This document shows positions 1,857 through 23,143 of a stretch of 41,243 nucleotides of DNA, piece by piece. A model generated the notes under the pieces. That model searched no databases and had not been told where the DNA came from. It was given only the letters and a program-made list of their open reading frames with translations. The stretch's first letter is position 1, and each line of letters begins with the position of its first letter. The position numbers and the translations under genes were made by a program. This DNA is from a virus: positions 1-41,243 of the IMG/VR virus record IMGVR_UViG_3300020411_000820. One strand, written 5' to 3'.

Positions 1857-1858
1857 CC

Positions 1859-3114: not shown

Positions 3115-3740
3115 TGAGTACATTAAAAGCCACAAACCTAGTCCACCCTACATCTAGCAGTAACAATATTGTTTTAGATAACAGTGGAAATGTAGAAGCA
3201 AGAAAGGTTAATGGTTGTCAACGAATAATATTAGAACAGTTCTATACTCCTTGTGATGGTTCAGTTATTGCTTTACAAGATGGCAATCATACATTATCTG
3301 GCCCTTCTGCTTACTATGAAGTAACTGATACTTTTACTGATATAGCAGGGTCAAGTTTCACTTACACACCTCCTACAGGCACAACACAAGTTATATATGA
3401 TTTTATGTTTGCAGAACGGAATAATGGTGGAAGTGGTCCAATTATTAGTTATAAGTTATTACTTGATAGTGATGAAGTAACTAAAGGTAGAACAGTCTCT
3501 AGAGAAAGTTCAAGTTATGAAGGTAAGGTTCAAATCAAATGGGGCTTTAATATTGGTGGAACTGCTGACACAACCGTTGGAAGAGTAGCAAGTTGGACTA
3601 GTAATAAAACTATCAAGATACAATGTGCTAGATATAGCTCTACTTTCCCTGCTTTACTGCATGAAACTTCTCATTGGGGTGCGGGTGGTTCTGATGATAG
3701 TTTTGTGTTACCCACTTTAGGTATTACAGCAATCGGATGA
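3114..3740 (+). CDS. Tail-fibre-associated protein, tandem paralogue 2
   Basis: 208 residues and a tandem paralogue of the gene before it: the same core motifs appear in the same order (ILEQFYTPCDGS, YTPPTGTTQVIY, WGFNIGGTA, GRVASW) and the C-termini are similar (GITAIG). The N-terminal anchor differs (STLKATNLVHPTSSSNNIV), as expected if anchors and tips recombine as modules. No enzyme motif is seen. Confidence 0.65.
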   Translation: MSTLKATNLVHPTSSSNNIVLDNSGNVEARKVNGCQRIILEQFYTPCDGSVIALQDGNHTLSGPSAYYEVTDTFTDIAGSSFTYTPPTGTTQVIYDFMFAERNNGGSGPIISYKLLLDSDEVTKGRTVSRESSSYEGKVQIKWGFNIGGTADTTVGRVASWTSNKTIKIQCARYSSTFPALLHETSHWGAGGSDDSFVLPTLGITAIG

Positions 3741-3744
3741 ACCC

Positions 3745-3963
3745 ATGAGAAAAATCATTGACATTATTGCAGTTGCTTCAGGCGTTGGTGTCTTAGCTAT
3801 TGCTGGTGGCGGGGTGTATGGCTTCTTATGGTTCCAAGGGAACAAGGATGCCTTAATGGAGAAAGCTGTTCAGCAAGTAACCAAGTCAATTAAGTTACCT
3901 GAGCTATCAAGCCCAGCCCTACCAACAGCAGCACCTAAAGGAATGAGTATTCCTAAGTTCTAA
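3745..3963 (+). CDS. Small single-pass membrane protein
   Basis: 72 residues. Residues ~5-30 form one hydrophobic span (IIAVASGVGVLAIAGGGVYG), followed by an amphipathic segment (MEKAVQQVTKSIKLPEL) and a Pro-rich tail ending SIPKF. The start is the second of two close ATGs; the first, at 3737, closes after three codons. The TAA overlaps the next ATG. It sits between tail genes and the convergent junction. I recall similar small membrane proteins in marine cyanophage tail regions; a holin-like role is possible but unproven. Confidence 0.6.
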   Translation: MRKIIDIIAVASGVGVLAIAGGGVYGFLWFQGNKDALMEKAVQQVTKSIKLPELSSPALPTAAPKGMSIPKF

Positions 3964-4148
3964 TGGGATTGCTGAATGCAATAGGATCTCTATTCGTTTA
4001 TAGAAGTCCTGATCCTGTTGATAGTTATCGTTCTTATTTAAGTACTAAATCTAATAGAGAGTTAAGAGAACTAGCCCATACTCCTAGTCATTACAGTAAG
4101 ACTATGCTTATCAATATGATTATTGATGGAGAAGATTCCAAAGATTGA
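3963..4148 (+). CDS. Small hypothetical protein
   Basis: 61 residues starting on TAATG. The core (SYRSYLSTKSNRELRELA, then HYSKTMLINMII) looks like a compact two-helix protein. I recall this short family from marine cyanophages, where it lies beside similar membrane and Pro-rich proteins. Function unknown. It overlaps the next gene by 23 bases. Confidence 0.55.
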   Translation: MGLLNAIGSLFVYRSPDPVDSYRSYLSTKSNRELRELAHTPSHYSKTMLINMIIDGEDSKD

Positions 4149-4833
4149 GACTCCAGTTATTAGAGTTTGGCAGATACAGCCACCTCAATCTTTAAATATC
4201 CAAGCACCAATAACAGTTGAATTAGGTTTCCCTGTTATAGATATGCCTGGATGTGTTGAAGCAAGAAAGAATAATAGGGAGAATAGTGCATTACTAACTA
4301 ACGACCCAAAAGGAAATGTTGTCTTATGCCAAGCGGAGTATCCAAGCTACAACGCAATGGATTACACGCCAGAAGAACTTGTATATCCACCAGAGAACGA
4401 GGAACAAAGATATCCACAACCACCCATCCCAGCAGCGGACACACCTCCCCCCAAGGAAATCGAGGATTGCCCGCCACCTGGAGCAGCGGAAGTTGGAACT
4501 AAAATCGAGGATGGCAGGAAAGAAATAACTGGATATCAATTAATAGGTAACCGTTGTGTTACTCAGTACAAGAAACTAACAACGACACAACAAATTATTG
4601 ATGCTATACCCACTGCTCCTCAGGTTGTTAGCACTACTGGTATTACTCTCATTGCCACTTCTGCCGCTTTGGCAACCCCAATTCTTCTTAAGGTAGTAAA
4701 GCCAATAGTTAAACAGATAATTAATAAGATTAAAAAGAAACTTGGTAAGCCTGTTAGAGCATTAACTGCATCAGAAAAAAGAGCTAACGCTTATCGAGAG
4801 AAGAAGGGTTTACCAGCATTAAAAATAAGGTAG
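4126..4833 (+). CDS. Pro-rich protein with C-terminal membrane segment
   Basis: 235 residues from ATG 4126 (a TTG one codon upstream is a weaker option). The N-terminal part has a segment IETPVIRVWQIQPPQSLNIQ and a GCVEARKNN motif. The middle is Pro/Glu-rich (YPPENEEQRYPQPPIP). Residues ~165-190 are hydrophobic (TGITLIATSAALATPILLKV), followed by a strongly basic end (KQIINKIKKKLGK). It is the last plus-strand gene before the convergent junction. It may be a virion or envelope-associated protein shared with marine cyanomyoviruses (from memory). Function unknown. Confidence 0.6.
   Translation: MEKIPKIETPVIRVWQIQPPQSLNIQAPITVELGFPVIDMPGCVEARKNNRENSALLTNDPKGNVVLCQAEYPSYNAMDYTPEELVYPPENEEQRYPQPPIPAADTPPPKEIEDCPPPGAAEVGTKIEDGRKEITGYQLIGNRCVTQYKKLTTTQQIIDAIPTAPQVVSTTGITLIATSAALATPILLKVVKPIVKQIINKIKKKLGKPVRALTASEKRANAYREKKGLPALKIR
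4799..4815. repeat. 17-bp direct repeat, left copy
   Basis: agaagaagggtttacca occurs here, in the 3' end of the plus-strand gene, and again at 4940-4956 in the 3' end of the convergent minus-strand gene. The two copies bracket the structured junction element. The two genes use the repeat in different frames and on different strands, so shared protein sequence does not explain it. Confidence 0.85.
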
Positions 4834-4933: not shown

Positions 4934-5710
4934 CTATTTAGAAGAAGGGTTTACCACCTCTAAAGGTTTAAGTGTGTGTCGATGAGGTAATACTTGCCCC
5001 ATCTTTGCTTTTACTTCTACATCTTCACAAATTTTTCTATAAGGACTATCTGCTGTGAATTGTATTCCTGCAAGAATGAGTTCACCACAGTTCTTAAGCC
5101 TTGTAATCTCGAAGTCTAGTCTCTTATAATTTACTAATTCTTGTTGTAAAGCAAGCTGCTTATCTACTGCTTGTTTACATCTTCTTTGAAGTGAATTGTC
5201 TAATGGAATTGAGAAATTAGCAGACACTCCCAAGTTCAAAGCGAAGTTATCTTTCTGCCCTGTACGTGTAGCAACATGGTGGCTTAAAGTCCCATCATCA
5301 TTGTAACTAGGGTTGTCATACCAATATTCTCTAGGCGTACTATATGTATGTGAGTCGGTAACAAATGGAGAGATAGTCAGCATCGGGCCTTGGCAAATAA
5401 TATTACCTCCGTAATGATTAGTAACACTATTGCCTGGTAGATTTTGGATTCCCATATTGGTTACACTTCCACTACTGTTAGCTACGGGAGCTGCTGTAGA
5501 GCTGGTCTGTGCTACAGCACTCCCTCCATATAGAAGAGCTACTGCGCAAATACTGAGGTAGTTTCTGTAACGCTTTCTATATTTGTTGTTCTGTTTATTG
5601 TTGTCATGTTGGATAGACCTGGCCCTCGATACGTCTCTACGTATTGGAAGGGCTGAGAGGTATTCGTGATTGTCACGTTTGGTTTTGTAGAAAGGTCTAA
5701 ACCAGTCCAT
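4934..5710 (-). CDS. Probable secreted or membrane protein, start uncertain
   Basis: The open frame runs from an ATG at 5710, giving 258 residues and a 172-base overlap with the upstream gene. The recognisable protein starts much later: a signal-peptide-like stretch NYLSICAVALLYGGSAVAQ (cleavage after AVA), then STAAPVANSSGSVTN, a tyrosine-rich middle (REYWYDNPSYNDDGTL, TRTGQKDNFALNLG) and a helical C-terminus with conserved cysteines (RRCKQAVDKQ, LKNCGELILAGI). I recall cyanophage homologues with a conventional signal peptide here. No ATG/GTG/TTG lies in frame just upstream of the signal sequence, so translation may use a rare start, a frameshift from the upstream gene, or the long form. Confidence 0.55.
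   Translation of the reverse strand: MDWFRPFYKTKRDNHEYLSALPIRRDVSRARSIQHDNNKQNNKYRKRYRNYLSICAVALLYGGSAVAQTSSTAAPVANSSGSVTNMGIQNLPGNSVTNHYGGNIICQGPMLTISPFVTDSHTYSTPREYWYDNPSYNDDGTLSHHVATRTGQKDNFALNLGVSANFSIPLDNSLQRRCKQAVDKQLALQQELVNYKRLDFEITRLKNCGELILAGIQFTADSPYRKICEDVEVKAKMGQVLPHRHTLKPLEVVNPSSK
4940..4956. repeat. 17-bp direct repeat, right copy
   Basis: Second copy of the repeat described at 4799-4815, lying just outside the right arm of the structured junction element. Confidence 0.85.
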
Positions 5711-5964
5711 GATTGTGATTGTCCATTGATAGTTCCAGTTACATTGCTACTGTCAGGTGAAATTGTTGATCCACTTATCGTTAAGTTAGATCCGTTAATT
5801 GAATATTGATGGCCTGTATTGTAATCGTGAGAGACAATACTTTCTGTCACTACTGATGTAGTTCTCGTGGTGGATTGCATAGTCCCTTGAGTGAAATTTG
5901 GAACTACGGGTACACTATAAGCAGGAGAACTTATAAGTAATAACAGTGGCAGAAGCCGCTTCAT
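5539..5964 (-). CDS. Secreted beta-rich protein with signal peptide
   Basis: 141 residues from ATG 5964, which shares a base with the preceding TGA (TGATG); a GTG one codon upstream is possible. MKRLLPLLLLISSPAYS is a textbook Sec signal peptide. The mature part is Ser/Thr/Asn-rich (SINGSNLTISGSTISPDSS, TYRGPGLSNMTTINRTT) and ends TSVFAQ. No enzyme motif. It is part of a four-gene overlapping operon. Export to the periplasm or host surface is inferred; I recall relatives in marine T4-like cyanophages. Confidence 0.65.
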   Translation of the reverse strand: MKRLLPLLLLISSPAYSVPVVPNFTQGTMQSTTRTTSVVTESIVSHDYNTGHQYSINGSNLTISGSTISPDSSNVTGTINGQSQSWTGLDLSTKPNVTITNTSQPFQYVETYRGPGLSNMTTINRTTNIESVTETTSVFAQ

Positions 5965-6443
5965 CACTTAATAGTTAAAGCACTCTCCATGCTGCCAATT
6001 GCCGAAGTCCCAGCACCTCCGGCTGTTATGGTCATGATACCCTGGCTGGTAATAGTTGCTGCCAAAGTATCTTTTGTACCTGCGGCAGTGGAAGTTACAT
6101 CACTAAAATTGCCCACTGCGCCTACCGCTGGAGCTGAAGTAGGGACTGCATCCGCCTGAGTATAACTTTGGGAATACGAGAAGGCGGCTCCTGGGTTATC
6201 TTGTGTGACAGCAATCGTTCCAGGCGAATAAACGCCACTCGTAATTGTCCCTGCCGAGACGGTGTTCGCAGTTGTGCCATCAGTTGTGTCTACATTTAGG
6301 CCAGAAGCTGAAAAACTCGACCCGATTCTTTGGGCCTGTGTTGCTGCCGCATTAACTGTGAGCTGGGTGCTCGTTGTTATAGCGTGGTGAATATCTGCCT
6401 GAGCAGGAGCTGCTAGGAATAAAAGGAAAAGTAATCTCTTCAT
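5964..6443 (-). CDS. Secreted Ala/Thr/Ser-rich protein
   Basis: 159 residues. MKRLLFLLFLAAPAQA is a clear Sec signal peptide with cleavage before DIHHAITT. The mature region is low in charge and rich in Ala, Thr, Ser and Gly with alternating beta-like strands (FSASGLNVDTTDG, SAGTITSGVYSPGTIAVTQ). The start overlaps the upstream stop (ATGA). It belongs to the same exported module as its neighbours. Function unknown; I recall this family from marine cyanophages, where it is annotated as hypothetical. Confidence 0.65.
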   Translation of the reverse strand: MKRLLFLLFLAAPAQADIHHAITTSTQLTVNAAATQAQRIGSSFSASGLNVDTTDGTTANTVSAGTITSGVYSPGTIAVTQDNPGAAFSYSQSYTQADAVPTSAPAVGAVGNFSDVTSTAAGTKDTLAATITSQGIMTITAGGAGTSAIGSMESALTIK

Positions 6444-6892
6444 GCGTCTTTAGTTGGTGGTGTTGCAGGAGGTTGGACTATCTGTTGAATCTCTCCTCCA
6501 TCAGGAGACTGTAGTTTAATAGGAGTTTGAACACGGATGATTTGCTCACCAGCACCAGCTTGATTAGCAGCCATCATCTTCTGCATATCTTCCTTGCTTA
6601 TACCACCACCACCTTTTTTAGATGCGGCCTGAACGCCAAAGGTAGTGAGAGTCGATGTAAAAATACTTGCAATAAAGGTCGGGTCGAAGGTCTGCTTAGG
6701 GAAACCAGGTAAATCTATGTATGCCAATGTGAGACAGAAGCCTGACCACACTACGATTCCTAATCTGACCGCTACTCCAATGATTGCTATTTGTTCTTCT
6801 TTATCAGGAGTCATCTCCTGAAGTTTATTCATTACACCTTTTTTCTTTTCTTCCTTCTTGTCTGAAGGAGGGACGGTCTGTTGGTCTGCCAT
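6440..6892 (-). CDS. Membrane protein heading the secreted module
   Basis: 150 residues. A charged N-terminus (residues 1-35, KKEEKKKGVMNKLQEMTP) is followed by two hydrophobic segments (IAIIGVAVRLGIVVWSGFCL and a weaker FIASIFTSTLTTFGVQAA). The C-terminal tail is acidic and Pro/Gln-rich (IIRVQTPIKLQSPDGGEIQQ). It is the first gene of the 4934-6892 unit, and there is no clear Shine-Dalgarno before its ATG. Its promoter must lie in 6893-6951 or further upstream. It could anchor or help export the two signal-peptide proteins downstream; function unknown. Confidence 0.65.
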   Translation of the reverse strand: MADQQTVPPSDKKEEKKKGVMNKLQEMTPDKEEQIAIIGVAVRLGIVVWSGFCLTLAYIDLPGFPKQTFDPTFIASIFTSTLTTFGVQAASKKGGGGISKEDMQKMMAANQAGAGEQIIRVQTPIKLQSPDGGEIQQIVQPPATPPTKDA

Positions 6893-7125: not shown

Positions 7126-7286
7126 CTGAAGTATGGGCTGCTCTTATTGGTGTTGCTGCTACAACTGTGGTCGTTGCCATAAGTAATAACAGCTCACGGA
7201 AAGAGAGAGATATCCGTGAACTGTTTCATAGAGTTAATGCACTTGAGAAACAAGTGGCGACACTAAAACCTAGAAGGTTCCCATAA
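7122..7286 (+). CDS. Small holin-like membrane protein
   Basis: 54 residues. Residues ~5-21 form one membrane span (WAALIGVAATTVVVAIS), followed by a charged amphipathic helix (SRKERDIRELFHRVNALEKQ) with heptad-like spacing and a basic end (KPRRFP). The size and topology fit small one-span phage membrane proteins such as class III holins, antiholins or tail-anchored coiled coils. It is coupled to the 57-residue gene. Its last 24 bases overlap the 3' end of the convergent exonuclease gene. The lysis role is only a suggestion. Confidence 0.55.
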   Translation: MTEVWAALIGVAATTVVVAISNNSSRKERDIRELFHRVNALEKQVATLKPRRFP

Positions 7287-7997
7287 CTTTACTTCTCCTG
7301 TTACATGGTCATACTCTCCATCTCTAAGGATGCGAGTTAAACGTGCAGTTAATACAGCATCAGCATAAGTTTTCTTCTTCTTAACATAGGCAGCGTGAAC
7401 CTTAGCCCACATTTCTTCAAGGGTTTCAGAATCACCTAATAGTTTTCCTGCTGTTACTGGCCCCACTCCTACTAATCCTTCTACATTATCTGTCTTGTCA
7501 CCACTCAAAGTTTGAATCATCCAGTGTCTATCAGCTTTCTTACGAGTAACTAATTCAAGATCATCATTAGCCAAGAGGGTACAAGGTACACCTCGCATGT
7601 CCTTATCAGGTGAAACAATTACTGGATCATCGTACTTCTGTCCTGTTGCAAGCAGCCCCATAACATCATCACCTTCCAAGCCATCGAAACTAATGGAGTG
7701 AAATTCTTTTGCGACTCTCTCTCTTATATTCTTAAGGCCAAGAGGCTTACGTTTACCTAGTCGATTAGCTTTGTAGTCTTGATAGATTCCATGTCTGAAG
7801 GTGGGATAATCAGAGAAGCACATGATTGCTTGACCTGGGCTGATGATCTGATACTGAGCAACACGATCTTCAATCAGTTGCATTGCATCACGTTCATCTA
7901 AGTGAAGAGTATGAAGGTGTTCATCCCATCTGACATCACATTCACATGCACAACAGGAGGAATAAATCAGCCAGTCAGCATCAATTAATAAAGTCAT
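7263..7997 (-). CDS. T7 gp6-like 5'-3' exonuclease
   Basis: 244 residues (T7 gp6 is 300). Flap/5'-nuclease metal-binding motifs are present in order: LLIDADWLIY at the N-terminus, FRHGIYQDYKANR, GLEGDDVMGLLAT, VIVSPDKDMRG, then a helix-hairpin-helix-type segment GDKTDNVEGLVGVGPVTAGK. It should remove RNA primers and degrade host DNA to recycle nucleotides. The start overlaps the primase-helicase stop by 4 bases; in T7 the DNA polymerase gene lies between these two. Confidence 0.92.
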   Translation of the reverse strand: MTLLIDADWLIYSSCCACECDVRWDEHLHTLHLDERDAMQLIEDRVAQYQIISPGQAIMCFSDYPTFRHGIYQDYKANRLGKRKPLGLKNIRERVAKEFHSISFDGLEGDDVMGLLATGQKYDDPVIVSPDKDMRGVPCTLLANDDLELVTRKKADRHWMIQTLSGDKTDNVEGLVGVGPVTAGKLLGDSETLEEMWAKVHAAYVKKKKTYADAVLTARLTRILRDGEYDHVTGEVKLWEPSRF

Positions 7998-9607
7998 AGT
8001 GCGAATAGAGGTAGTTTTAATCGACCTGTTTGCTGGTCGTAGAGCAGCTTATCCATAGGGCCAGTAACCCCACTAAAGCGATTTTTTAATAGGCGCAACT
8101 GGAGTTCTGATCTCTCAGCTGGGTCGCCTTGTTGGTTTCTTTCAGCAGCTAGAACCAAGTCAGATAACTGAGCCACGGAATGTGATGAGCGCAGGTGGGA
8201 GAGAGAAACCTGAGTTCCTTCTTCATGTCCTTTGCCTTCAGGTCGTCTCAAGTGTGAGACAACTATGAGTCCAACGCCTGTATTTTCTACTACTTGTCGC
8301 AGCTTGGTACAGGTAACATCAAGTGCTCGTCTCTCATCTAGATCACTGATACCAGAAATAACTATGGTCAAGTGGTCAAGGATGACAACATCAACACCTT
8401 CAGCTGTAGCTAGATATTGAATCTGTTCAACTAAACGATCAGGATCTATTGAACCAAAGTGGTCATATAAAAAGAGACGACCAGTACCAAGCAATCGGTC
8501 AAAGGCCATCTTTAATTCTTCATCTTCAGCAAGGTTATCCTCAAAGTGAAGAGGTCTTGATAACTCAACTCCGATTATTCCTTGCAGTGTTCTTTGAATA
8601 CTTTCTTCGAGTGCTATGTACCCCACTTTCATTTGATTCCTTAGAAAGTGATGAGCTAATTCTCTGCACATAGAACTCTTACCTGTTCCTGATCCTGCGC
8701 AGACAGTTACCATCTCACCCTTGCGGTATCCTTTCGTTGCATCGTTCAACTTAGGCCAAGGGTATTCACAAACTGAGGCAGCCCCTGGTTTTATCAGTGC
8801 CTCCCACTGGTCAGCGGCTTGTATGATTGAATCAGGTCTTGCAGGTGTTGCTTTCCAAAGCAAGTCCCTAAGGTCATCCCCCTCTCCTGCGAGGAGCATT
8901 TCATTAGCATCTTTTCTTGGTAATCGACAGATAGCTGCTTTACCAAGAGGTAAGACTTCAAGTGCTTTCTCGGCAGCAGCCATGCCAGGCTCATCCGAAT
9001 CCAAGCAAAGAACAATCCGAACAAATGTGTTTAACCATTTCTGTACTTCAGGAGTGGATAAATACTTTTTAACTGATTGCGCTCCGTTTGGCAGTGACAC
9101 AACAGGGAACTTGTTACCTTGTACTTGAGAGACTGACATTGCATCTATCTCTCCTTCAGTAATAACAACAAAAGTATTACCTTGGTTTGTCTGTCTCCAT
9201 GTGTGCTGAGAGAAGAGCATCATCTTGCTGGTATCACCTAGCCAAATGAATTTCTTATCTTTAAATCTCACATGTTGAGCACATGGTCTGCCTAAATGAT
9301 CGAAGTAATTAGCAACTTGAACAGGTTGATTGTGATACTCAGCTATGCCATAGGGAAAACGACAAACAGTTTCTTCTGTGATGCCACGCTTCTTTAGTGC
9401 AGCTGGTTTGATGAACTTGATTAGTGGTGATGTCTGTCTTGGTGGTGATGCTGTTGTCATTGGTCTTGGTTTTTTTTCTTTTGATGGTTGGTATTGGTAG
9501 TCGCATCCAAAGCAATGAGCATGTCCGTCATCAAAGACTGCAAGGTTATCCTTACTGCCACATTCAGGGCAAGGCTCATGCCTTAGGTACTTGCTTTTGC
9601 TTTTCAT
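7994..9607 (-). CDS. T7 gp4-like primase-helicase
   Basis: 537 residues (T7 gp4 is 566). Zinc-ribbon cysteines are at 13, 16, 32 and 35 (CPEC, CFGC), the TOPRIM motif TEGEIDAMS starts at about residue 150, and a RecA-type helicase domain has Walker A GSGTGKS with K310 and Walker B VVILDHLT. It unwinds the fork and lays primers. GGGAG stands upstream of the ATG. The protein ends in a neutral, hydrophobic GRLKLPLFAL and lacks the acidic, Phe-ended tail with which T7 gp4 docks on its DNA polymerase. That agrees with the absence of a phage polymerase gene. Confidence 0.95.
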   Translation of the reverse strand: MKSKSKYLRHEPCPECGSKDNLAVFDDGHAHCFGCDYQYQPSKEKKPRPMTTASPPRQTSPLIKFIKPAALKKRGITEETVCRFPYGIAEYHNQPVQVANYFDHLGRPCAQHVRFKDKKFIWLGDTSKMMLFSQHTWRQTNQGNTFVVITEGEIDAMSVSQVQGNKFPVVSLPNGAQSVKKYLSTPEVQKWLNTFVRIVLCLDSDEPGMAAAEKALEVLPLGKAAICRLPRKDANEMLLAGEGDDLRDLLWKATPARPDSIIQAADQWEALIKPGAASVCEYPWPKLNDATKGYRKGEMVTVCAGSGTGKSSMCRELAHHFLRNQMKVGYIALEESIQRTLQGIIGVELSRPLHFEDNLAEDEELKMAFDRLLGTGRLFLYDHFGSIDPDRLVEQIQYLATAEGVDVVILDHLTIVISGISDLDERRALDVTCTKLRQVVENTGVGLIVVSHLRRPEGKGHEEGTQVSLSHLRSSHSVAQLSDLVLAAERNQQGDPAERSELQLRLLKNRFSGVTGPMDKLLYDQQTGRLKLPLFAL

Positions 9608-9686
9608 TTTTCTCCCAGTGTTTAATGAGGAGTTCTAGTTCCTTGATTCTTTTGGTTGCATAGTCAATGCGTTCAGTAACGTTCAT
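9576..9686 (-). CDS. Tiny coiled-coil-like ORF between replication genes
   Basis: 36 residues, mostly one charged helix (ERIDYATKRIKELELLIKHW). It bridges two genes: its ATG lies 14 bases inside the end of the 9673-9978 gene behind GGAGAAGAG, and its end overlaps the first 32 bases of primase-helicase. The strong ribosome-binding site and staircase overlap support translation. It could be a coupling peptide or a small partner of the helicase; no family recognised. Confidence 0.5.
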   Translation of the reverse strand: MNVTERIDYATKRIKELELLIKHWEKNEKQKQVPKA

Positions 9687-9978
9687 CTCTTCTCCAAGGT
9701 TTAGGCTCGTGACTATCAATCACAAGGCACTTCCATTCAGGATGTTCTGCCTTCACTTTCTCAACTGCCTTAGTAGCTGTTGATGCACGTTGGAAAACGA
9801 GACTAGATTTATTATCTTTATCAGGGTCGATGACCTTGATAGTAAACACTTTGATTTGATTAGCAGATAGGAAATGACTTTCCTCTTCTGCTATTACTCG
9901 TTGTCTTTTAGTCATACCAAGATGAGGGGATAGTGCCGCTAGACCATTTAAATCCATGTCTTGTAGCCCATTGGCCAT
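9673..9978 (-). CDS. Hypothetical protein in replication operon
   Basis: 101 residues from ATG 9978, overlapping the endonuclease I end by 71 bases. The N-terminus (NGLQDMDLNGLAALSPHLGM) is followed by a small alpha/beta domain (FTIKVIDPDKDNKSSLVFQR, KAVEKVKAEHPEWKCLVIDS). No catalytic motif. Its location between endonuclease I and primase-helicase suggests an accessory role in DNA metabolism; function unknown. Confidence 0.65.
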   Translation of the reverse strand: MANGLQDMDLNGLAALSPHLGMTKRQRVIAEEESHFLSANQIKVFTIKVIDPDKDNKSSLVFQRASTATKAVEKVKAEHPEWKCLVIDSHEPKPWRRDERY

Positions 9979-10360
9979 AAGTAATAGATCGTTTGGCTCG
10001 ACTGATCTTGTCCTTTGCGTTTTGAAAACACAAACGAATATCTAAATCAGGGTGTTGCTTCTGAACAGCAAGCATCTTGCGTCTGTCCTGAGGGGAAAAG
10101 AATCCTTTCGTCTCTACGACAACACCATTTTCAAGAATAAAATCTGGGCGATAGACTGCCTCAATAATGTAAGGCAAGGTCATATCTTCATAGGTAAACC
10201 CAACTTTATTTTGAGTGAGAGCCGCTGCTACACGACTCTCGAATTTACTTCTGTACTTAGAACTCGTCCCCTGATGAGACTGCTGGTGCTGCACATGCGA
10301 CTGGTTCCTCCGCTTGTGTCTCGAACCCGTAGCTCGTTGCGCTTTTTGAGTATTCGACAT
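9908..10360 (-). CDS. T7 gp3-like endonuclease I (Holliday-junction resolvase)
   Basis: 150 residues from ATG 10360 (T7 gp3 is 149); a longer frame to 10408 would extend further into the SSB gene. The catalytic set of the family is visible: E41 (KFESRV), D73 (RPDFILENG), E83 and K85 (VVVETKG), then HPDLDIRLCFQNAKDK as in T7 (HPELDIRIVF). It cuts branched DNA and degrades host chromosome. The residues before ~33 are a Gln/His/Arg-rich extension absent from T7; its coding overlaps the SSB 3' end by 104 bases. Confidence 0.9.
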   Translation of the reverse strand: MSNTQKAQRATGSRHKRRNQSHVQHQQSHQGTSSKYRSKFESRVAAALTQNKVGFTYEDMTLPYIIEAVYRPDFILENGVVVETKGFFSPQDRRKMLAVQKQHPDLDIRLCFQNAKDKISRAKRSITYGQWATRHGFKWSSGTIPSSWYD

Positions 10361-10865
10361 GCTTATGAATGATGGCAGCTTCAGGTTGGATCTTGATACC
10401 AACTCCAAAGTTTCCTGAGTAACCAGAACAACGTAAAAAGACTTGGCCTTCTGTACCTGGCCCCATCTTATTCACTGCTTGCTTCTCTTCCTCAGTCATC
10501 GGTTGACCTTGAGCATTCTGTAGAACAGGAGGTCTGTTAGTCCATTGCTTTCCTTGCTGGTTAATACCTCCGACTTTCATCTTGGTCTTAACTGCAAAAA
10601 CTGGCTTACCATCACGCTCTTCATATGACCATGGTAGAGCTGCAAGTTTGAACTTCTTATCAGGTTCAGCTGCTTTGAGTTGAGCTTTCCATCTATCTAA
10701 CAGTCCAGTTAATTGCTCTTCAATTTGTGTTGCCTTATCAGCTGGGATTAGGCATGTAACTTTCCATACCCCTGGCGTTTCAAATTTAGTATCTGCCTCA
10801 ACTAACCAGGCAAATTCAAATTCGCATCGAGGTGTTGTGACGTTTAGGATTTCTGATTTAATCAT
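10257..10865 (-). CDS. T7 gp2.5-like single-stranded DNA-binding protein
   Basis: 202 residues (T7 gp2.5 is 232). The OB-fold-like body includes RCEFEFAWLVEADTKFETPG, VWKVTCLIP, VFAVKTKMKVGGIN and GVGIKIQPEAAII. The tail (QAEEPVACAAPAVSSGDEF) is mildly acidic and ends in Phe, like T7 gp2.5, whose terminal Phe contacts the replication enzymes. It lies between RNA polymerase and endonuclease I as in T7, coupled to the polymerase gene through ATGA. Confidence 0.88.
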   Translation of the reverse strand: MIKSEILNVTTPRCEFEFAWLVEADTKFETPGVWKVTCLIPADKATQIEEQLTGLLDRWKAQLKAAEPDKKFKLAALPWSYEERDGKPVFAVKTKMKVGGINQQGKQWTNRPPVLQNAQGQPMTEEEKQAVNKMGPGTEGQVFLRCSGYSGNFGVGIKIQPEAAIIHKHVEYSKSATSYGFETQAEEPVACAAPAVSSGDEF

Positions 10866-13231
10866 GTGATGAAATAGGTTGATGATTTTGTGATTGTTGG
10901 ATCTAACTCACCGAGTTCAGGCTCAGGAGGTAGATCCTTTTTGTCTTGGATTTGTGATTCGAGCCTTGATTTAATTTGTGATAGCCAGTCTGTTGAATAC
11001 AGATCAGCAAAGCTATGCCTAACAGAATCCCTTAGCTTGCTCATGCTTGCAGGATCGGTGGCAAAGCAATCATGTACACCTCCTATGTTTATGGTGGGTT
11101 CTCTCTTTCTAGCATGGACAATTGCCATTGAGTAGTGAGATGAATCAAAACTGTGAAGGATATTTGCAGTCAAACCATTTGCCATCCGAGTCTTGTCTAG
11201 GCCTACGGTTTCAACTTCTGTCCGTATATCAAGAGAGACATCTGAGAGATATCTAAGACGAATCCTAGATTCTCTTTGATTTTGGTAGCGCTGTTCTACG
11301 AGTAACCCACTAGGGGATCTCCATTGCAGCGGCTTGTTCTCTTTACCAGCTCTTAGACCTATAGCTTTGAAATAATTCATAGCATTTACAGCTGGTGCAA
11401 TTACCTTGACTGATTCCTTATGCAAGATGTTTGCCATGAAGTGCATGGTTGTCATGCATCCCTTCTGAACAGTCCATGATCCATTCCCATACATATCCTT
11501 AGCCCTCTTCTGTGCCCAGTCATAAGCGTAGTAATAGAACGCTGTTCGACTGGCTGCATAGGGCGTGGTCATTACGCAAGGCTTGGCTAGTGACCGATCA
11601 GGTTGCAGCATCAGCCACTTCCTAGCTCGTTCATCAGTGCAATCTCTTAGATGTTCATTGACTTTGGTAATGACAGTCGCATAGATATCTTGAGGTCTAT
11701 CACTTGGATAAAGATTAACTTCAGATGCAAGTGATTTGCTCCTTAATATTGCTGCGAAATGTTGGATACCTGAGCACGTGCAGTCCAGCATTATGGGCAG
11801 GGCACATTCATACTCCCATCCATGTCTTTGGAAGTTGGAATACTCACGACAAAAAGCTAAGAAACTCCAAGGTTTATCAGCTCTCATCCAGAACTCAGCA
11901 TTAATCCAAGGATCATTCCCAGCTCCACAGATGAGCTGTTCTCTTTCCTTTACCCAGTCAATGCGAGTCTGCCAGTCTGACTTAAGACCATAGAGATTAG
12001 CTCCATGTATTCTTAGCCAGTCAACATGACTTTCTTCAGTGATCGGCTTTGCATTTGCAAATAGAAGCAACGACCTAGATACATCATTGCCTTGTGGATT
12101 TAGATAGGGAGGTCGGTAATAAAATCTCCCTCGGAAATCCATAGAGGTAGGAAAGAATATCTCTTCCTCCTCTTGGAACCTACGAGCAACCCAAAGAATC
12201 TTTGCGTTTGCTATGCGTGTGTTCCTAGTTCGATCATTCTTTTCATGGAGAATCTTTGCAGTCTTTCTCCACTTGAGTACACCTAAGTCTTCCTCATCCA
12301 AGTGTTTAGGGTAAGGAGGAATAGGCCATCCATCTCTAGGTAAGAGGCAGCCAACTTCTATGTTGTTGTCATAGGCATGTGTTACCTGTTCCAACATCCA
12401 TGTGTTTACTTTCCAAGCAACAGACTGATGTATGTTTGCTGCCTTATAGAAAAGTTCATCACCATTTGAGTCGGCTTTAATGATCTCGTTATTACTCTTG
12501 AATAATTTCAAGGGTGTCTTTGTGTAATAACCTCCGTTACTTGGTGAAGACCAAGGCTTAGGAGGTATCACCATAGGCAAGTAGTTAGGTGTCATTAACT
12601 CTTGCTGTTCTTTAACCTCATTGATCCATGCCATGCACTCATCAGTTGCTTTAACAACACGCTGCTTTTTGTGAGGTAGATCTTCTCTAACTATTTGAAT
12701 GAGTCCAGTCTCTTTAGCGATGAGATTGACTAGGAATAAACCTGATGCAATCTTCTCTCTTGAAGTCCAGATCTCTGTTTGCTGCATCCTTCTGATGGCA
12801 GCCATCTTATGAGCCTGACGACTACGACCCTTCTTAAACCTGAATAACTCTTGAGTAGTAGCTCTATCCAACATCGTTTCAATCCATAGCTTGTCAGCTA
12901 CATCCATTGAAATACTGTGAAGAGTGGGACAAGCAGATAGAGAATCTATTACAGTTCTTATGCTTGCTGCTGCTACCTGCTGAGGTGGCAAGTGGGTGAT
13001 GGGTAGTAGTTGGGCAAAGCTAACACCTGCTTTGCCTGACTCAATCCTTTTTCTTACTGCCCTTAGGTGGACAACGATTTGGTCTACACCATAGGCAGAT
13101 AAAGCCTCTCCCCATTTAGAGAGAGACTCCATCTTTTTCTTTTGCTGGTTGTGTGTGATGAGTCGAACTCTGTCGCACCCCAGCGTTAGCATCTCTCTTT
13201 CGAGTGCTAATTGCTTGGCAAGTTTGTTCAT
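10862..13231 (-). CDS. T7-like single-subunit RNA polymerase
   Basis: 789 residues from ATG 13231; a TTG at 13261 would add ten. It is shorter than T7 RNAP (883). Catalytic landmarks by T7 comparison: motif A DCTCSGIQHF with D483 (T7 D537), motif B with R546, K550 and Y558 (T7 R627, K631, Y639; the Gly after Tyr is Ala here), motif C VHDCFAT with D721 (T7 D812). The specificity-loop region (RESRIRLRYLSDVSLDIR) differs from T7, so promoters will differ. The C-terminus ends STYFIT. It should transcribe the late plus-strand genes. It follows the small early genes and is probably made from the host-driven early mRNA. Confidence 0.97.
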   Translation of the reverse strand: MNKLAKQLALEREMLTLGCDRVRLITHNQQKKKMESLSKWGEALSAYGVDQIVVHLRAVRKRIESGKAGVSFAQLLPITHLPPQQVAAASIRTVIDSLSACPTLHSISMDVADKLWIETMLDRATTQELFRFKKGRSRQAHKMAAIRRMQQTEIWTSREKIASGLFLVNLIAKETGLIQIVREDLPHKKQRVVKATDECMAWINEVKEQQELMTPNYLPMVIPPKPWSSPSNGGYYTKTPLKLFKSNNEIIKADSNGDELFYKAANIHQSVAWKVNTWMLEQVTHAYDNNIEVGCLLPRDGWPIPPYPKHLDEEDLGVLKWRKTAKILHEKNDRTRNTRIANAKILWVARRFQEEEEIFFPTSMDFRGRFYYRPPYLNPQGNDVSRSLLLFANAKPITEESHVDWLRIHGANLYGLKSDWQTRIDWVKEREQLICGAGNDPWINAEFWMRADKPWSFLAFCREYSNFQRHGWEYECALPIMLDCTCSGIQHFAAILRSKSLASEVNLYPSDRPQDIYATVITKVNEHLRDCTDERARKWLMLQPDRSLAKPCVMTTPYAASRTAFYYYAYDWAQKRAKDMYGNGSWTVQKGCMTTMHFMANILHKESVKVIAPAVNAMNYFKAIGLRAGKENKPLQWRSPSGLLVEQRYQNQRESRIRLRYLSDVSLDIRTEVETVGLDKTRMANGLTANILHSFDSSHYSMAIVHARKREPTINIGGVHDCFATDPASMSKLRDSVRHSFADLYSTDWLSQIKSRLESQIQDKKDLPPEPELGELDPTITKSSTYFIT

Positions 13232-13264
13232 CTGAATACCAGAGTCTTTCTCTGAACTCAAGAT

Positions 13265-13486
13265 TCAATTCACTTGCTCCCAGAAATTCATCTTGTCCTC
13301 GTAGTTATTTTCAAACCACTCAGTCAGGATTCTTCTGGCGAGGTCAGCTTTAGTTACTCCCTGTTCTTCAGCTAGATAGTTAAGCCTAGTCATTAGCTGT
13401 TGAGGTAAGACAACTTGAAGCTTGTTTTCTTTTGCATCTGCTATTGGTTTGTTTACCAACTCATCTGCTAGTGCAGCTTCATTCAT
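13265..13486 (-). CDS. Ribbon-helix-helix DNA-binding protein
   Basis: 73 residues. The core (KLQVVLPQQLMTRLNYLAEE, then GVTKADLARRILTEWF) has the beta-strand/helix/helix pattern of Arc/CopG-type ribbon-helix-helix repressors. It starts by overlapping the preceding stop (ATGA) and ends 33 bases before the RNA polymerase ATG. It could repress early transcription or autoregulate; the target is unknown. The palindromes near 15961-15980 or 16044-16084 are conceivable operators (inference only). Confidence 0.7.
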   Translation of the reverse strand: MNEAALADELVNKPIADAKENKLQVVLPQQLMTRLNYLAEEQGVTKADLARRILTEWFENNYEDKMNFWEQVN

Positions 13487-13797
13487 AATGTTTTACCTCT
13501 AAAGAAAAACTTTTTAAGAACTGGTTCGATCAAGACATTTGAAACTATTGGATCAGGAAATTCATCCTTTAATAGTTTCTCAAATTCTTTTTCTAATAGT
13601 TCTTTCTCTGTTGGAGCTGGCTCAGGTGGATCAGGCAACATCATCCAATGAGTTGCATCATTAGGTGGATAGCTCCAATGTCCTTGCATAAATCCAAGAA
13701 CCTGCACGTAATAAAGAACGTGACCATTCCTATTAGAGTGAGCCTCGTTAGGTTTCTTATCAGTCAGTAAATAGAACTGATCTAATTGTTCAATCAT
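13483..13797 (-). CDS. DUF551-like small early protein
   Basis: 104 residues. The GHVLYYVQVLGFMQGHWSYP and THWMMLPDPPEP motifs match the DUF551 signature (a hydrophobic strand, then T-H-W-M-P-L-P-x-P-P), a domain common in phage small proteins of unknown role. A charged C-terminal helix (EKELLEKEFEKLLKDEF) follows. The ATG lies directly after ACCCACCAC and AAAGAG (leader copy A). Confidence 0.65.
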   Translation of the reverse strand: MIEQLDQFYLLTDKKPNEAHSNRNGHVLYYVQVLGFMQGHWSYPPNDATHWMMLPDPPEPAPTEKELLEKEFEKLLKDEFPDPIVSNVLIEPVLKKFFFRGKTL

Positions 13798-13963
13798 CTC
13801 TTTGTGGTGGGTTTTCTAATAAGTAAGAACCAAACTCACAACAAACAATGATCTGTTGTGAGCTGGGTTCTGTCTTGAAGTAAGAGCGATGCCAGTTACG
13901 GTATAACTCATAGAGTTTTTTATCTCTAGTGAATTTGCTAGAGATGTACTCTTCATTCTTCAT
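13790..13963 (-). CDS. Small early protein
   Basis: 57 residues from the ATG at 13963, which overlaps the end of the preceding gene by 11 bases; longer in-frame starts lie within that gene. It is rich in Lys, Arg, Tyr and Trp (FTRDKKLYELYRNWHRSYFK) and ends EFGSYLLENPPQRDD. Its last codons contain leader copy A, so the Pro-Pro-Gln-Arg residues are encoded by ACCCACCACAAAGAG. No family recognised. Confidence 0.55.
   Translation of the reverse strand: MKNEEYISSKFTRDKKLYELYRNWHRSYFKTEPSSQQIIVCCEFGSYLLENPPQRDD
13804..13871 (-). promoter_or_regulatory. Early leader element, copy A
   Basis: On the minus strand: a two-tier hairpin (outer agaacc 13826-13831 with ggttct 13866-13871, inner ctcacaaca 13835-13843 with tgttgtgag 13854-13862), then ACCCACCAC (complement of 13804-13812), then AAAGAG and ATG at 13797. 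It lies wholly inside the upstream coding sequence. It shares the stem, ACCCACCAC, ribosome site, start layout with copies B-D. Confidence 0.7.
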
Positions 13964-14201
13964 AGTCGTTAAACAACCAGTCATCTTGACGTTTGCCTTT
14001 GATTCCTGCGATGAGGTCATGTGCAGATAGTCTGCACTCTTCCACAATATGCTGAGGTAACTCTGCTCGCAATCTTTCTACAATCTTTGACATCTTCTCA
14101 CGTGTCTCAGGGCTGCGACTAGTTTCCATGCGTGACCAGCACTCAACTAGCAAAGCCTTGTTACTTTCGAGAACATGTTGATGGTGTTTCATTGCTCCCA
14201 T
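13953..14201 (-). CDS. Small helical early protein
   Basis: 82 residues from ATG 14201; a second ATG at 14192 sits on the upstream stop (ATGA) behind GGGAG and would give 79. It is mostly helical and charged (SRSPETREKMSKIVERLRAE, HIVEECRLSAHDLIAGIKGK) and ends in an acidic DDWLFNDYEE. No family recognised. It is one of a run of overlapping minus-strand early genes. Confidence 0.6.
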   Translation of the reverse strand: MGAMKHHQHVLESNKALLVECWSRMETSRSPETREKMSKIVERLRAELPQHIVEECRLSAHDLIAGIKGKRQDDWLFNDYEE

Positions 14202-14335
14202 TGTTTCTCCATGTTTAAACGTCTTTGAATAAGAGTCTCACCTATTGGTGAGTTCTTGATCCCATTGGATAAGGAAGAAAAAACCCAGCACCCCGCTAAT
14301 AAAGCGAGGGCCGAGTAAATAAGTAAACGATTCAT
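14189..14335 (-). CDS. 48-residue membrane protein or lipoprotein
   Basis: Starts on ATGA overlapping the previous stop and ends overlapping the next gene. The N-terminus (MNRLLIYSALALLAGCWVFS) is a signal anchor with a lipobox-like Leu-Ala-Gly-Cys (Cys16), followed by a short polar segment (IQRRLNMEKQWEQ). Size and lipobox recall small outer-membrane spanin lipoproteins, though an early position is unusual for lysis genes. It may instead be an early membrane protein acting on the host. Confidence 0.55.
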   Translation of the reverse strand: MNRLLIYSALALLAGCWVFSSLSNGIKNSPIGETLIQRRLNMEKQWEQ

Positions 14336-14580
14336 TTGTTAGTAGGTACAAGAGATAGAACTTCTTGCTTAGCTTGGCCAAAGAATTTAATCAATTCGGC
14401 CCAGTATTGAGGGCAGTCAATCATATAAAGATTGTGCCACTCATCAGCATGTAAAGCCCAGCGATTAGCCCAGTCTCTTTGATAGGTAGCCCAGCTGATT
14501 AGCTCGCTATCTCTATCTTCAAGAGCTTTCTTTAGTTCCCTGTTTTCTTCTAGCAATTGAGCGTTTGTTTTTCTTGTCAT
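14332..14580 (-). CDS. Coiled-coil small early protein
   Basis: 82 residues. The N-terminal half is a charged coiled coil (NAQLLEENRELKKALEDRDS), the C-terminal half aromatic (YQRDWANRWALHADEWHNLY, YWAELIKFFGQAKQ). The ATG is preceded by leader copy B (ACCCACCAC, then AAAGGAAC). Its TGA overlaps the start of the 48-residue gene. Function unknown; it could be a host-takeover protein. Confidence 0.6.
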   Translation of the reverse strand: MTRKTNAQLLEENRELKKALEDRDSELISWATYQRDWANRWALHADEWHNLYMIDCPQYWAELIKFFGQAKQEVLSLVPTNK

Positions 14581-14593
14581 TTGATGTTCCTTT

Positions 14594-14739
14594 GTGGTGG
14601 GTTGGTAGGCTTCAAGGTTGCAACTTCCATTAGACCTAAAAGGAATTGCATGAGATCACCCATGCTGGAGTTTTAAAGTTCGTACGCTTGAAGCCAGTGA
14701 GGGATTGAGTCCCTCAGTCTGCCCAATAGTCAGGGCAGA
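14594..14739 (-). promoter_or_regulatory. Early leader element, copy B, with upstream hairpins
   Basis: On the minus strand: hairpin tctgccc/gggcaga (14718-14724 with 14733-14739), hairpin tgaggga/tccctca (14698-14704 with 14710-14716), a 9-bp long-range pairing ggcttcaag/cttgaagcc (14608-14616 with 14687-14695), ACCCACCAC (complement of 14594-14602), AAAGGAAC, then ATG 14580. I see no convincing gene between 14581 and 14748. Confidence 0.65.
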
Positions 14740-14748
14740 GAGAGAAAG

Positions 14749-14868
14749 TCATAGACTGTCATAAATTCTTTGTGGGCAATTAGTCCACGTTCTTTTTATG
14801 ACCGTCCATCCAAGTTCTAATAAAACTGGGATAAGTTTTGGATCATCAATGTAAGTTGAATAATTCAT
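14749..14868 (-). CDS. 39-residue early peptide
   Basis: A short ORF starting on TAATG, sharing a base with the stop of the 55-residue gene. Sequence character: STYIDDPKLIPVLLELGWTV, then a basic, aromatic end with one Cys (KRTWTNCPQRIY). It is coupled to the gene before it and followed by tandem hairpins. Only the coupling and reasonable composition support it. Function unknown. Confidence 0.45.
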   Translation of the reverse strand: MNYSTYIDDPKLIPVLLELGWTVIKRTWTNCPQRIYDSL

Positions 14869-15035
14869 TAGTTTTTAACTATGTTGATAGGCTTTGACTT
14901 ATCAAGTTTTAAATCTTCTAAGTCTTTCTTTGTTATTACTTCCTTCATATTAGAAGTAACATCATCAACAGAATTAATCTCTTTGAGATCTACTTCCTTG
15001 GAAGAATCTCCAAAAGCAAAAACTACTGAAGGCAT
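14868..15035 (-). CDS. 55-residue early protein
   Basis: Starts at ATG 15035 after leader copy C (ACCCACCAC, then ATAGGAAA). Acidic and Ser/Val-rich N-terminal half (PSVVFAFGDSSKEVDLKEIN), Lys-rich helix near the end (KEVITKKDLEDLKLDKSK). No family recognised. A strong leader and coupling to a second small ORF make it likely to be translated. Small acidic early proteins of phages often bind host enzymes, but no target can be named. Confidence 0.6.
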   Translation of the reverse strand: MPSVVFAFGDSSKEVDLKEINSVDDVTSNMKEVITKKDLEDLKLDKSKPINIVKN

Positions 15036-15049
15036 AATTAATTTCCTAT

Positions 15050-15107
15050 GTGGTGGGTTAGTCCCTCAGTTAAGAGGGAAGAGCTAGGTCAGGGTTTGCA
15101 CCTGACC
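15050..15107 (-). promoter_or_regulatory. Early leader element, copy C, with tandem hairpins
   Basis: On the minus strand: stem ggtcagg/cctgacc (15087-15093 with 15101-15107, 7-base loop), stem tccctc/gaggga (15062-15067 with 15074-15079, 6-base loop), then ACCCACCAC (complement of 15050-15058), AGGA and ATG 15035. It occupies the whole gap between the 201-residue and 55-residue genes, so it could also act as a processing or partial termination site. Confidence 0.7.
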
Positions 15108-15115
15108 CCCCGCTT

Positions 15116-15721
15116 TTACGGATTAGCTAATAGGAGATTATAAGACGCATAATTGAACATTCTTCTTTTAAATTCTTTTTGTTCTTTGTTCCATTCAGGC
15201 AAATGATTCAGAACATGACTCCAAGAATCTCTAAATGTTTTCTTACATGCCTTGCACCTAACAATGGGAACCATCTCCCCAAATTCTTTATCCTTTGCTT
15301 GATATTTAACCATGCAAAGCTCAAACATATGGGGATCTTTTCCATTGAAAAATGCTTTTCCTTCTCCCATTTCAGGAAGTTTCAAGCCGTGGTAACAGGG
15401 AACATTGATTAATAATCCTGTGTCATGCCTTAATTGGATTAGACCTGGATGTTCTTCTGTTCCCTTGTATTCGTATGGTTCCCTAATGTTTTCATCTTCA
15501 GGATCTACATAGTCATGTAGTGGTGCAGACCTGTCGTAGTCGTCATAGCTGCCAACCTGCAAATGATCTTCATCAGGGAAAGGCAAACGAAACCACATAT
15601 TCTTGAAACTGTCTTCATAGTCAACCTTGAAGCGATCTTCAAAGCGTAAGTAGTAGCAACTTTCACAGGTTCCAATTTTGATTTGTTCCCCTGTGCTCTT
15701 TAATCGTGCATACTCTCCCAT
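15116..15721 (-). CDS. First early gene: Cys-rich protein
   Basis: 201 residues. Two CxxC pairs (TCESCYYLRF at ~18-27 and VRCKACKKTF at ~155-164) could bind zinc. Between them is an acidic, aromatic region (SYDDYDRSAPLHDYVDPEDE); the C-terminus is helical and charged (EWNKEQKEFKRRMFNYASYN). It is the promoter-proximal gene of the leftward early unit, preceded by leader copy D and a sigma70 promoter, so it should be made first after infection. Host takeover is a reasonable inference. No family recognised beyond a vague memory of cyanophage hypothetical proteins. Confidence 0.7.
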   Translation of the reverse strand: MGEYARLKSTGEQIKIGTCESCYYLRFEDRFKVDYEDSFKNMWFRLPFPDEDHLQVGSYDDYDRSAPLHDYVDPEDENIREPYEYKGTEEHPGLIQLRHDTGLLINVPCYHGLKLPEMGEGKAFFNGKDPHMFELCMVKYQAKDKEFGEMVPIVRCKACKKTFRDSWSHVLNHLPEWNKEQKEFKRRMFNYASYNLLLANP

Positions 15722-16138: not shown

Positions 16139-16366
16139 ATGAAATCGACAGATGTATTAGCGGATGTACATGAGTTATTAGCACAATGGTGCTTAGAGAA
16201 ATTGAAGGAAGGGAATGTAAATGCAGCAGATCTGAATATTATTAGGCAGTTTCTGAAAGATAATCAGATCAGTGCGCAACCAGTAGAGGAAACAAGCTTT
16301 GGGGAGTTGGCTAAAGCATTACCTGAGATAGAAAATGTAGTGCAGTTACAGAAGAAGAGAGCATAA
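16139..16366 (+). CDS. Small terminase subunit (gp18-like)
   Basis: 75 residues, a helical acidic protein (DVHELLAQWCLEKLKEGN, ADLNIIRQFLKDNQI) ending in a basic LQKKRA. Position directly before the large terminase, with no spacing, and size (T7 gp18 is 89 residues) identify it. It should recognise concatemeric DNA for packaging. AAGGA lies just before the ATG. It is the first gene of the rightward late unit. Confidence 0.8.
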   Translation: MKSTDVLADVHELLAQWCLEKLKEGNVNAADLNIIRQFLKDNQISAQPVEETSFGELAKALPEIENVVQLQKKRA

Positions 16367-18103
16367 ATGAAAGGAAAGTGGGAACCATTACCTGAACCCT
16401 TCAGTAATGACTTCAGATATTTCCTGGTAGTGGTGTGGAAACACCTTCAATTACCAAAACCAACACCAATACAGTTGGATATTGCAGAATATATGCAGGA
16501 TGGGCCTAAAAGAAGGATCATTGAAGCGTTTAGAGGAGTAGGAAAGAGCTGGATGGCAGCAGCTTATGTACTTTGGCTGCTAAGAAACGATCCACAGAAG
16601 AAAATTATGGTGGTGTCGGCTAGTAAAACAAGGGCTGATGACTTTGCACAGTTCTGTTTAAGGTTAATTAGAGAGATGAATATACTGAAATGCTTAGATC
16701 CTGATAGAGATGAGCAAAGAAGTGCAAGTAATAGGTTTGATGTAAGACCATCTATCCCAGATCAGAGTCCTTCTGTGAAATCAGTGGGTATTTTTGGGCA
16801 ATTAACTGGATCTAGGGCAGATTTAATACTTGCTGATGACGTTGAGGTTCCTAATACTGCTTGGACAGTAGGAATGAGAGAGAAATTATTACACTCAGTC
16901 GGAGAATTTAATGCAATCTTGAAACCTGGTGGGGAGATTATGTTCTTAGGAACGCCCCAAACAGAAGAAAGTATCTATAACAAGCTGAGAACTAAAAGTT
17001 ATCAATGTCGTATTTGGCCTTCACGTTATCCAAAAAATCCCGATAAATATGGAGATGCTCTCGCTCCAGTAATCCTGGATAGATGCGTCGATAGAAAGAA
17101 TATGCCGACAGATCCTGATCGCTTTTCGGAGATGGACCTAGTTGAGAGAGAAGCCAGTTACGGACGATCACAATTTACCCTCCAGTTTCAACTTGATACT
17201 ACTCTTTCTGACCTACAAAGATTCCCTCTTCGCTTAAGTGATTTAATTGTGATGGAGGTAGATCAGAATGCACCAGAGAAATTGGTCTGGTCTTCTGGTG
17301 CTGAATACAGAATTAATGATTTACCGACTGTCGGCTTTAGTGGAGATTATTACCACCGACCTGCTTTTATTCATGGTGATTGGATTGAGTTTCAAGGATG
17401 CGTAATGTTTGTTGACCCTTCAGGTCGAGGTATGGATGAAACTGCTTATGCAATAGTCGCTCAATTAAATGGAAATTTATTTGTATTAGAGGTCGGTGCT
17501 TTTAGAGAAGGTTATACAGAGCCAGTTTTAGAAGGTCTAGCCCAAGCAGCAAAACGACAGAAAGTAAAACTGATTCTTCTTGAAGACCAGTTTGGACAAG
17601 GAATGTTACAAAGTTTGCTCCAGCCTTATTTGAGAAATATTTATCCATGCACTATTGAACCAGTTAGAAGCAATATGCAAAAGGAAAGAAGAATAATCAA
17701 TGCTCTTGAACCAGTTTTAAATCAACATAGATTAATAATTAATAGATCAGTCGTAGAAAAAGATTCACAACCTAGAGATGATGATCCCATAGAAACAGCC
17801 TTGGCATATCAGCTGTTTCACCAGATGACACACTTAACTGTCGATAAGAATTGTTTACAACATGATGATAGATTAGACGCATTAGCTGGTGCTATTGAAT
17901 ACTGGAATGAGTCTCTTGCTATAGATGAGAATAGAGCTATTAAAGAACGTGAAGCAGAACTCTGGGATCTTGAATTGGCTGCGCACAAGGGAGATATTGA
18001 AGGGGCTCTCGACGCAAAAGTACTTGGGATTCCTCTTGCATCGCTCCCACAAAGTCGAGGAAAAGAAATCTGGATGCCTGATAGAGAAAAAGTCGGACGT
18101 TAA
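16367..18103 (+). CDS. Large terminase subunit (gp19-like)
   Basis: 578 residues (T7 gp19 is 586). The ATPase domain has Walker A FRGVGKS with K60 and Walker B ADLILADDVE. The RNase-H-like nuclease has D350 (FVDPSGRGMDE), ILLEDQFGQGM and a C-terminal HDDRLDALAG (D500/D501/D504). It pumps DNA into the prohead and cuts concatemers. It follows small terminase directly and precedes small genes and the portal, the T7-like cyanophage order. Confidence 0.96.
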   Translation: MKGKWEPLPEPFSNDFRYFLVVVWKHLQLPKPTPIQLDIAEYMQDGPKRRIIEAFRGVGKSWMAAAYVLWLLRNDPQKKIMVVSASKTRADDFAQFCLRLIREMNILKCLDPDRDEQRSASNRFDVRPSIPDQSPSVKSVGIFGQLTGSRADLILADDVEVPNTAWTVGMREKLLHSVGEFNAILKPGGEIMFLGTPQTEESIYNKLRTKSYQCRIWPSRYPKNPDKYGDALAPVILDRCVDRKNMPTDPDRFSEMDLVEREASYGRSQFTLQFQLDTTLSDLQRFPLRLSDLIVMEVDQNAPEKLVWSSGAEYRINDLPTVGFSGDYYHRPAFIHGDWIEFQGCVMFVDPSGRGMDETAYAIVAQLNGNLFVLEVGAFREGYTEPVLEGLAQAAKRQKVKLILLEDQFGQGMLQSLLQPYLRNIYPCTIEPVRSNMQKERRIINALEPVLNQHRLIINRSVVEKDSQPRDDDPIETALAYQLFHQMTHLTVDKNCLQHDDRLDALAGAIEYWNESLAIDENRAIKEREAELWDLELAAHKGDIEGALDAKVLGIPLASLPQSRGKEIWMPDREKVGR

Positions 18104-20605: not shown

Positions 20606-20613
20606 TACCCACC

Positions 20614-21402: not shown

Positions 21403-21412
21403 GAGTTATTAT

Positions 21413-21517: not shown

Positions 21518-21520
21518 TTT

Positions 21521-22486: not shown

Positions 22487-22497
22487 TCTTTAACTAT

Positions 22498-22528: not shown

Positions 22529-22535
22529 ATTCGTC

Positions 22536-23141: not shown

Positions 23142-23143
23142 CC

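Follow-up and report, generated by a model that had tools for sequence, protein, structure and literature searches.

Organization of the replication genes

The DNA analysed here, called the window, is the whole of IMG/VR record IMGVR_UViG_3300020411_000820 (41,243 bp, classed as linear in IMG/VR), an almost complete T7-like podovirus genome from the ocean, whose replication block contains no DNA polymerase gene. The genes for RNA polymerase (RNAP), single-stranded DNA-binding protein (SSB), endonuclease I, primase-helicase and exonuclease follow the T7 order and lie on the minus strand, whereas the structural genes are on the plus strand (Table 1). The primase-helicase carries Zn-ribbon (CPEC...CFGC) and Toprim (DSDEPG) motifs, and the stop of its gene shares 4 bp (7994-7997) with the start of the exonuclease gene, at the position occupied by gene 5 in T7. 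The order, the strand and the overlap are as described in an earlier sequence-only reading of the window, which had also claimed that the polymerase gene is missing and that the use of a host polymerase by such a phage would be a different replication strategy. The single-subunit RNAP and the T7-like structural set and order are Autographiviridae features.

Search for a DNA polymerase gene

The six-frame translation of the window was searched with the profiles of family A (PF00476), DnaE (PF07733), family B (PF00136 and PF03175) and Prim-Pol (PF09250) polymerases. No match was obtained with PF00476, nor at E<=0.1 with the four other profiles, for each of which control genomes were positive (weakly for PF03175). 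The window also gave no tblastn match to 10 phage PolA queries, the split P-SSP7 polymerase included, and no polymerase was found by Pfam and PHROG scans of its larger open reading frames (ORFs). The helicase domain weakly overlaps the PHROG family 'DNA polymerase/primase' (E 0.003), within its ATPase part. These results confirm that the window has no recognisable DNA polymerase gene, either whole or split, in agreement with the sequence-only reading.

The identical PF00476 search was carried out on 57 relatives, namely P-SCSP1u, P-SCSP2, MedDCM-S08-C159 and 54 IMG/VR records (mostly fragments, 28 of them of at least 30 kb). PolA was detected in 0/57 relatives versus 9/9 control phages. Among the loci compared, designated by L numbers, 99 have the primase-helicase gene followed by the exonuclease gene with the polymerase absent between them, and 134, from other T7-like phages, have the primase-helicase gene followed by that of the polymerase. 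In some relatives, the vacated slot holds small genes, two kinds of which are methyltransferase-like by their sequence only (L009/L026 and L254) and one is an unassigned frame of about 130 aa (L250/L255); a polymerase is never present there.

Contig ends and completeness

A polymerase gene could exist in sequence missing from the contig, since IMG/VR classes the record as linear and the two ends cannot be joined neatly: bases 1-85 are a 98% identical repeat of 41099-41183, beyond which the sequences diverge. A direct terminal repeat was considered and rejected, 85 bp at 98% followed by divergence being read as a fibre-gene repeat or an assembly branch. However, the T7 polymerase position is internal and closed by the 4-bp overlap, and both ends of the window lie in a tail-fibre array where relatives carry fibre-type genes only. 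Homologues of the right-end and left-end genes are direct neighbours in L036, in that order, and only fibre-type genes separate the main tail fibre from gene 3745 in L120 and L009. In L035, the right-end gene (99.4% identity over 512 bp) is followed by more fibre-type cassettes and then by a gene which resembles, by eye, 4123-4833 of the window. These arrangements place the junction inside the fibre array and make a missing segment unlikely, and a polymerase located there was rejected on this basis. Furthermore, the complete genomes of the cultured P-SCSP1 and P-SCSP2 phages are also without polymerase, and we regard a gene lost from the contig as extremely improbable. As the record is classed as linear, closure rests on relatives and not on reads; the window is essentially a complete genome.

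The 512-bp fibre stretch belongs, in L035, to a contig otherwise of little DNA similarity to the window, which suggests that fibre cassettes have been recently exchanged.

Relationship with the MPP-C clade

Cai et al. (ISME J 2022, PMC9860041) isolated 18 Prochlorococcus podoviruses devoid of DNA polymerase (P-SCSP1, P-SCSP2), which constitute the MPP-C clade. Phages of the MPP-C clade are reported to account for almost half of surface-ocean cyanopodovirus reads (PMC9860041). The best matches of the window are the P-SCSP1 phages, with identities of 84% for the terminase large subunit (TerL), 77% for the major capsid protein (MCP), 64% for RNAP and 57% for the primase-helicase. P-SCSP1u contains an equal gene block with a 4-bp overlap at 6340-6343, and the block is similar in P-SCSP2 and MedDCM-S08-C159. 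In the primase-helicase tree (79 non-redundant tips), the 27 polymerase-less sequences, with the window, P-SCSP1u and P-SCSP2 among them, form one clade with a support of 1.0 and zero polymerase-bearing tips inside. The exonuclease tree likewise contains a single polymerase-less clade (support 0.99). After midpoint rooting of the primase-helicase tree, the closest tip with a polymerase is L286, and its helicase still ends in ...TTDAF. The placement of the window comes from the primase-helicase tree (Cai et al. used a nine-gene tree). The data fit a single loss of the family A polymerase in the common ancestor of the MPP-C clade.

The absence of polymerase is thus already published for the lineage of the window and is not new. 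The different replication strategy claimed earlier stands insofar as the primase-helicase and SSB are kept, the polymerase is gone and a host enzyme is presumed; its novelty does not, Cai et al. having described it for MPP-C. Within the literature collection searched, no polymerase-less Autographiviridae were found beyond those of Cai et al.

C-terminal tail of the primase-helicase

In T7, the acidic C-terminal tail of the helicase, which ends with Phe, contacts the polymerase (PMC5997990, PMC12593628). The primase-helicase of the window ends in ...TGRLKLPLFAL and such a tail is absent. Among 101 distinct primase-helicases from polymerase-bearing loci, a terminal Phe occurs in 93, a net acidic tail in 95 and the two together in 87, versus 15, 1 and 0, respectively, among 75 from polymerase-less loci. 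The mean number of acidic residues past the TGRL motif is 4.6 with polymerase and 0.46 without. The acidic tail is kept across deep polymerase-bearing branches and is gone throughout the polymerase-less clade, showing that the primase-helicase of this lineage has lost its predicted T7-type polymerase-docking tail. This co-loss is further support for a polymerase truly gone, and suggests that the partner of the helicase has changed. The C-termini are not mentioned in the main text of Cai et al. (2022), to which the helicase-tail co-loss and the repeated block inversions described below are additions.

The new helicase tails of the polymerase-less clade are short and hydrophobic or aromatic (LPLFAL, IPMSSYF, DFFGEKL, QQTNFFQ). 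Their likeness to clamp-binding peptides is suggestive at most, the usual Gln being missing in most of them. A speculative possibility is that, with the loss of the polymerase, the helicase swapped its acidic tail for a short peptide docking a part of the host replisome (sliding clamp or DNA polymerase III), giving a hybrid fork in which a T7-type helicase-primase would drive host DNA polymerase III. A clamp-binding motif, QLDQF, in the DUF551-like early protein of the window was rejected as it is not conserved in homologues. The SSB of the window ends in ...SSGDEF, acidic and with its terminal Phe retained; an acidic, aromatic-ended SSB tail is kept in nearly all polymerase-less phages examined, despite the loss of the helicase tail.

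Proposed mode of replication

We propose, with a probability of about 0.8, that the window is a genome of the MPP-C clade in which the family A polymerase was lost once in an ancestor and whose DNA is copied by a host polymerase, DNA polymerase III (Pol III) being likelier than DNA polymerase I (Pol I). The phage would supply its own RNAP, SSB, primase-helicase, endonuclease I and exonuclease. The host polymerase would copy the DNA together with the phage primase-helicase and SSB, priming would be ensured by phage RNAP transcripts or by the primase, and the exonuclease and endonuclease I should act as in T7.

In the satellite phage P4, a phage-type helicase-primase works with host Pol III. On indirect grounds, host Pol III appears more likely than Pol I as the copying enzyme, since it is the replicative enzyme, a precedent exists for its association with a phage-type helicase-primase, and the tail for docking a Pol I-family enzyme is gone. 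Cai et al. considered host Pol I as their first option, next to host Pol III and, as the third, an unrecognised polymerase (PMC9860041). Pol I is the family A enzyme of the host, the family of T7 gp5, but the acidic tail by which the T7 helicase holds a family A polymerase is absent in the clade and Pol I is chiefly a repair enzyme (PMC9860041), so that its recruitment seems rather unlikely.

A highly divergent or novel polymerase encoded by the phage and missed by the profiles might be sought among the proteins to which no function is assigned, one of 1060 aa and several small conserved ones. The 1060- and 2213-aa proteins, however, lie in internal virion protein positions, and the unassigned proteins of the early region are small (73-201 aa) and of uneven occurrence: the most frequent one is found in 40/99 polymerase-less loci at the sensitivity used, and the 201-aa one is unique to the window. 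The change of helicase partner suggested by the loss of the docking tail also argues against such an enzyme, which we judge improbable.

Several points weigh against replication by a host polymerase as proposed here. The identity of the copying polymerase is reached by inference, and a polymerase unlike known families could hide among the small unassigned ORFs. The tail loss and the polymerase loss fall on one branch, so their association is a single evolutionary event and the counts are not independent trials. Since an acidic tail with a terminal Phe is present on the SSB whether or not the phage has a polymerase, the SSB does not discriminate between the two groups. Finally, most of the relatives are, like the window itself, contigs from metagenomes with a linear classification.

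The co-loss of the docking tail provides a defined peptide for asking what the helicase of the abundant MPP-C phages now binds. Our results also confirm that surveys based on polymerase genes miss the MPP-C lineage.

Other features of the genome

The remaining genes are listed in Table 1. Two long ORFs lack an assignment (1060 and 2213 aa); they occupy the gp15 and gp16 positions of the structural module. The 101-aa protein encoded between the primase-helicase and endonuclease I genes was found in 23/99 polymerase-less loci versus 0/134 polymerase-bearing loci, and the 201-aa ORF matches nothing in Pfam or PHROG and has no homologue in the searched loci. None of psbA, hli, mazG, rnr, talC or thyX, which are auxiliary metabolic genes, was detected when the main ORFs, all but a few that are mostly small, were scanned with Pfam and PHROG. 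No lysozyme or endolysin was recognised in the whole window, including a gp3.5-like lysozyme, which sits between endonuclease I and the primase-helicase in several polymerase-bearing relatives. Motif counting on both strands gave nothing convincing as a repeated phage promoter.

Table 1. Features of the 41,243-bp window, listed from the replication block onwards.
Feature	Position	Strand	Matches
Exonuclease (T7 gp6-like), 244 aa	7263-7997	minus	PHROG 107, E 5e-55; PF02739/PF01367
Primase-helicase (T7 gp4-like), 537 aa	7994-9607	minus	PHROG 239, E 3e-166; PF21268, PF13155, PF03796
101-aa protein, function not assigned	9673-9978	minus	
Endonuclease I (T7 gp3-like)	within 9908-10408 (from first start codon; real start probably more internal)	minus	PHROG/Pfam, E 2e-41; PF05367, E 4e-34
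gp2.5-like SSB, 202 aa	10257-10865	minus	PHROG 112, E 5e-17
T7-type single-subunit RNAP	10862-13261 (TTG start) or 13231 (in-frame ATG)	minus	PHROG 414, E 7e-183; PF00940
Early region, small proteins, none polymerase-like	13265-15721	minus	
RHH/Arc-like early protein	13265-13486	minus	
DUF551-like early protein	13483-13797	minus	
201-aa orphan ORF, paired cysteines	15116-15721	minus	
Terminase small subunit	16139-16366	plus	PHROG 891 and PF22530 (for terminase pair, 16139-18103)
TerL	16367-18103	plus	84% identity to P-SCSP1
Portal, scaffold, major capsid, tail tube A and B, gp13-/gp14-like, 1060-aa protein (gp15 position)	18805-30221	plus	PF12236, PF05396, PF25675, PF11090, PF24072
2213-aa internal virion protein (gp16 position)	30227-36868	plus	PHROG 6651, E 2e-16
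Tail fibre and fibre-type cassettes to right end	36876-41243	plus	PF03906 (tail fibre)
Fibre-type cassettes and small genes, continuation of right-end array	1-4833	plus	
Four small conserved phage proteins, function not assigned	4934-6892	minus	PHROG 848, 650, 564, 2714

Genome rearrangements

As read from the assembled contigs, the segment 7263-18311 of the window, which runs from the exonuclease to the RNAP gene and on through the early genes and the terminase, is inverted compared with P-SCSP1u and most of the close relatives (e.g. L004), with breakpoints at gene boundaries (7258/7276 and 18307-18309). L001, a 31-kb contig of about 90% identity over the inverted region, shares both breakpoints. 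The arrangement of the window is also that of the distant L169 and L172, and inversions therefore seem to recur. In L015, L016, L019 and L022 (also L136 and L192), the segment running from the capsid to the tail-fibre genes is inverted beyond the scaffold gene, relative to the scaffold and portal genes, which is a second kind of module inversion within the lineage.

Comparison with known systems

T7, P-SSP7, the Roseobacter phage CRP-125 and the pelagiphages HTVC031P and HTVC119P have the Autographiviridae gene order of the window and replication proteins homologous to its own but, unlike the window, encode a family A polymerase between the primase-helicase and the exonuclease. The helicase ends with Phe in CRP-125, HTVC031P, P-SSP7 and T7, and in EHEEI in HTVC119P. 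Both the phage-encoded family A polymerase of the T7 replisome and the acidic, Phe-ended C-terminal tail of its primase-helicase are absent from the window, and in T7 the replication and structural genes are not on opposite strands.

P-SCSP2 and the uncultured MedDCM-OCT-S08-C159 (Jalkavirus) are polymerase-less and belong to the clade of the window, to which their primase-helicase, MCP and TerL are 51-55% identical; P-SCSP2 differs in encoding an integrase and in having its terminase on the structural-gene strand. The P-SCSP1a-u phages (MPP-C) have, like the window, no DNA polymerase, the order RNAP-SSB-endonuclease I-primase-helicase-exonuclease and the 4-bp overlap. They are Prochlorococcus isolates, whereas the window is placed with them by its genes. 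Compared with P-SCSP1, the window has its replication and terminase block inverted with respect to the structural genes; it also exceeds P-SCSP1 in length by about 3.4 kb and includes a long fibre array. Its 41.2 kb fall outside the 37.3-37.9 kb of the MPP-C isolate genomes (PMC9860041), a range which describes isolates and is not a criterion of descent, and the clade relative L016 is of 41,227 bp.

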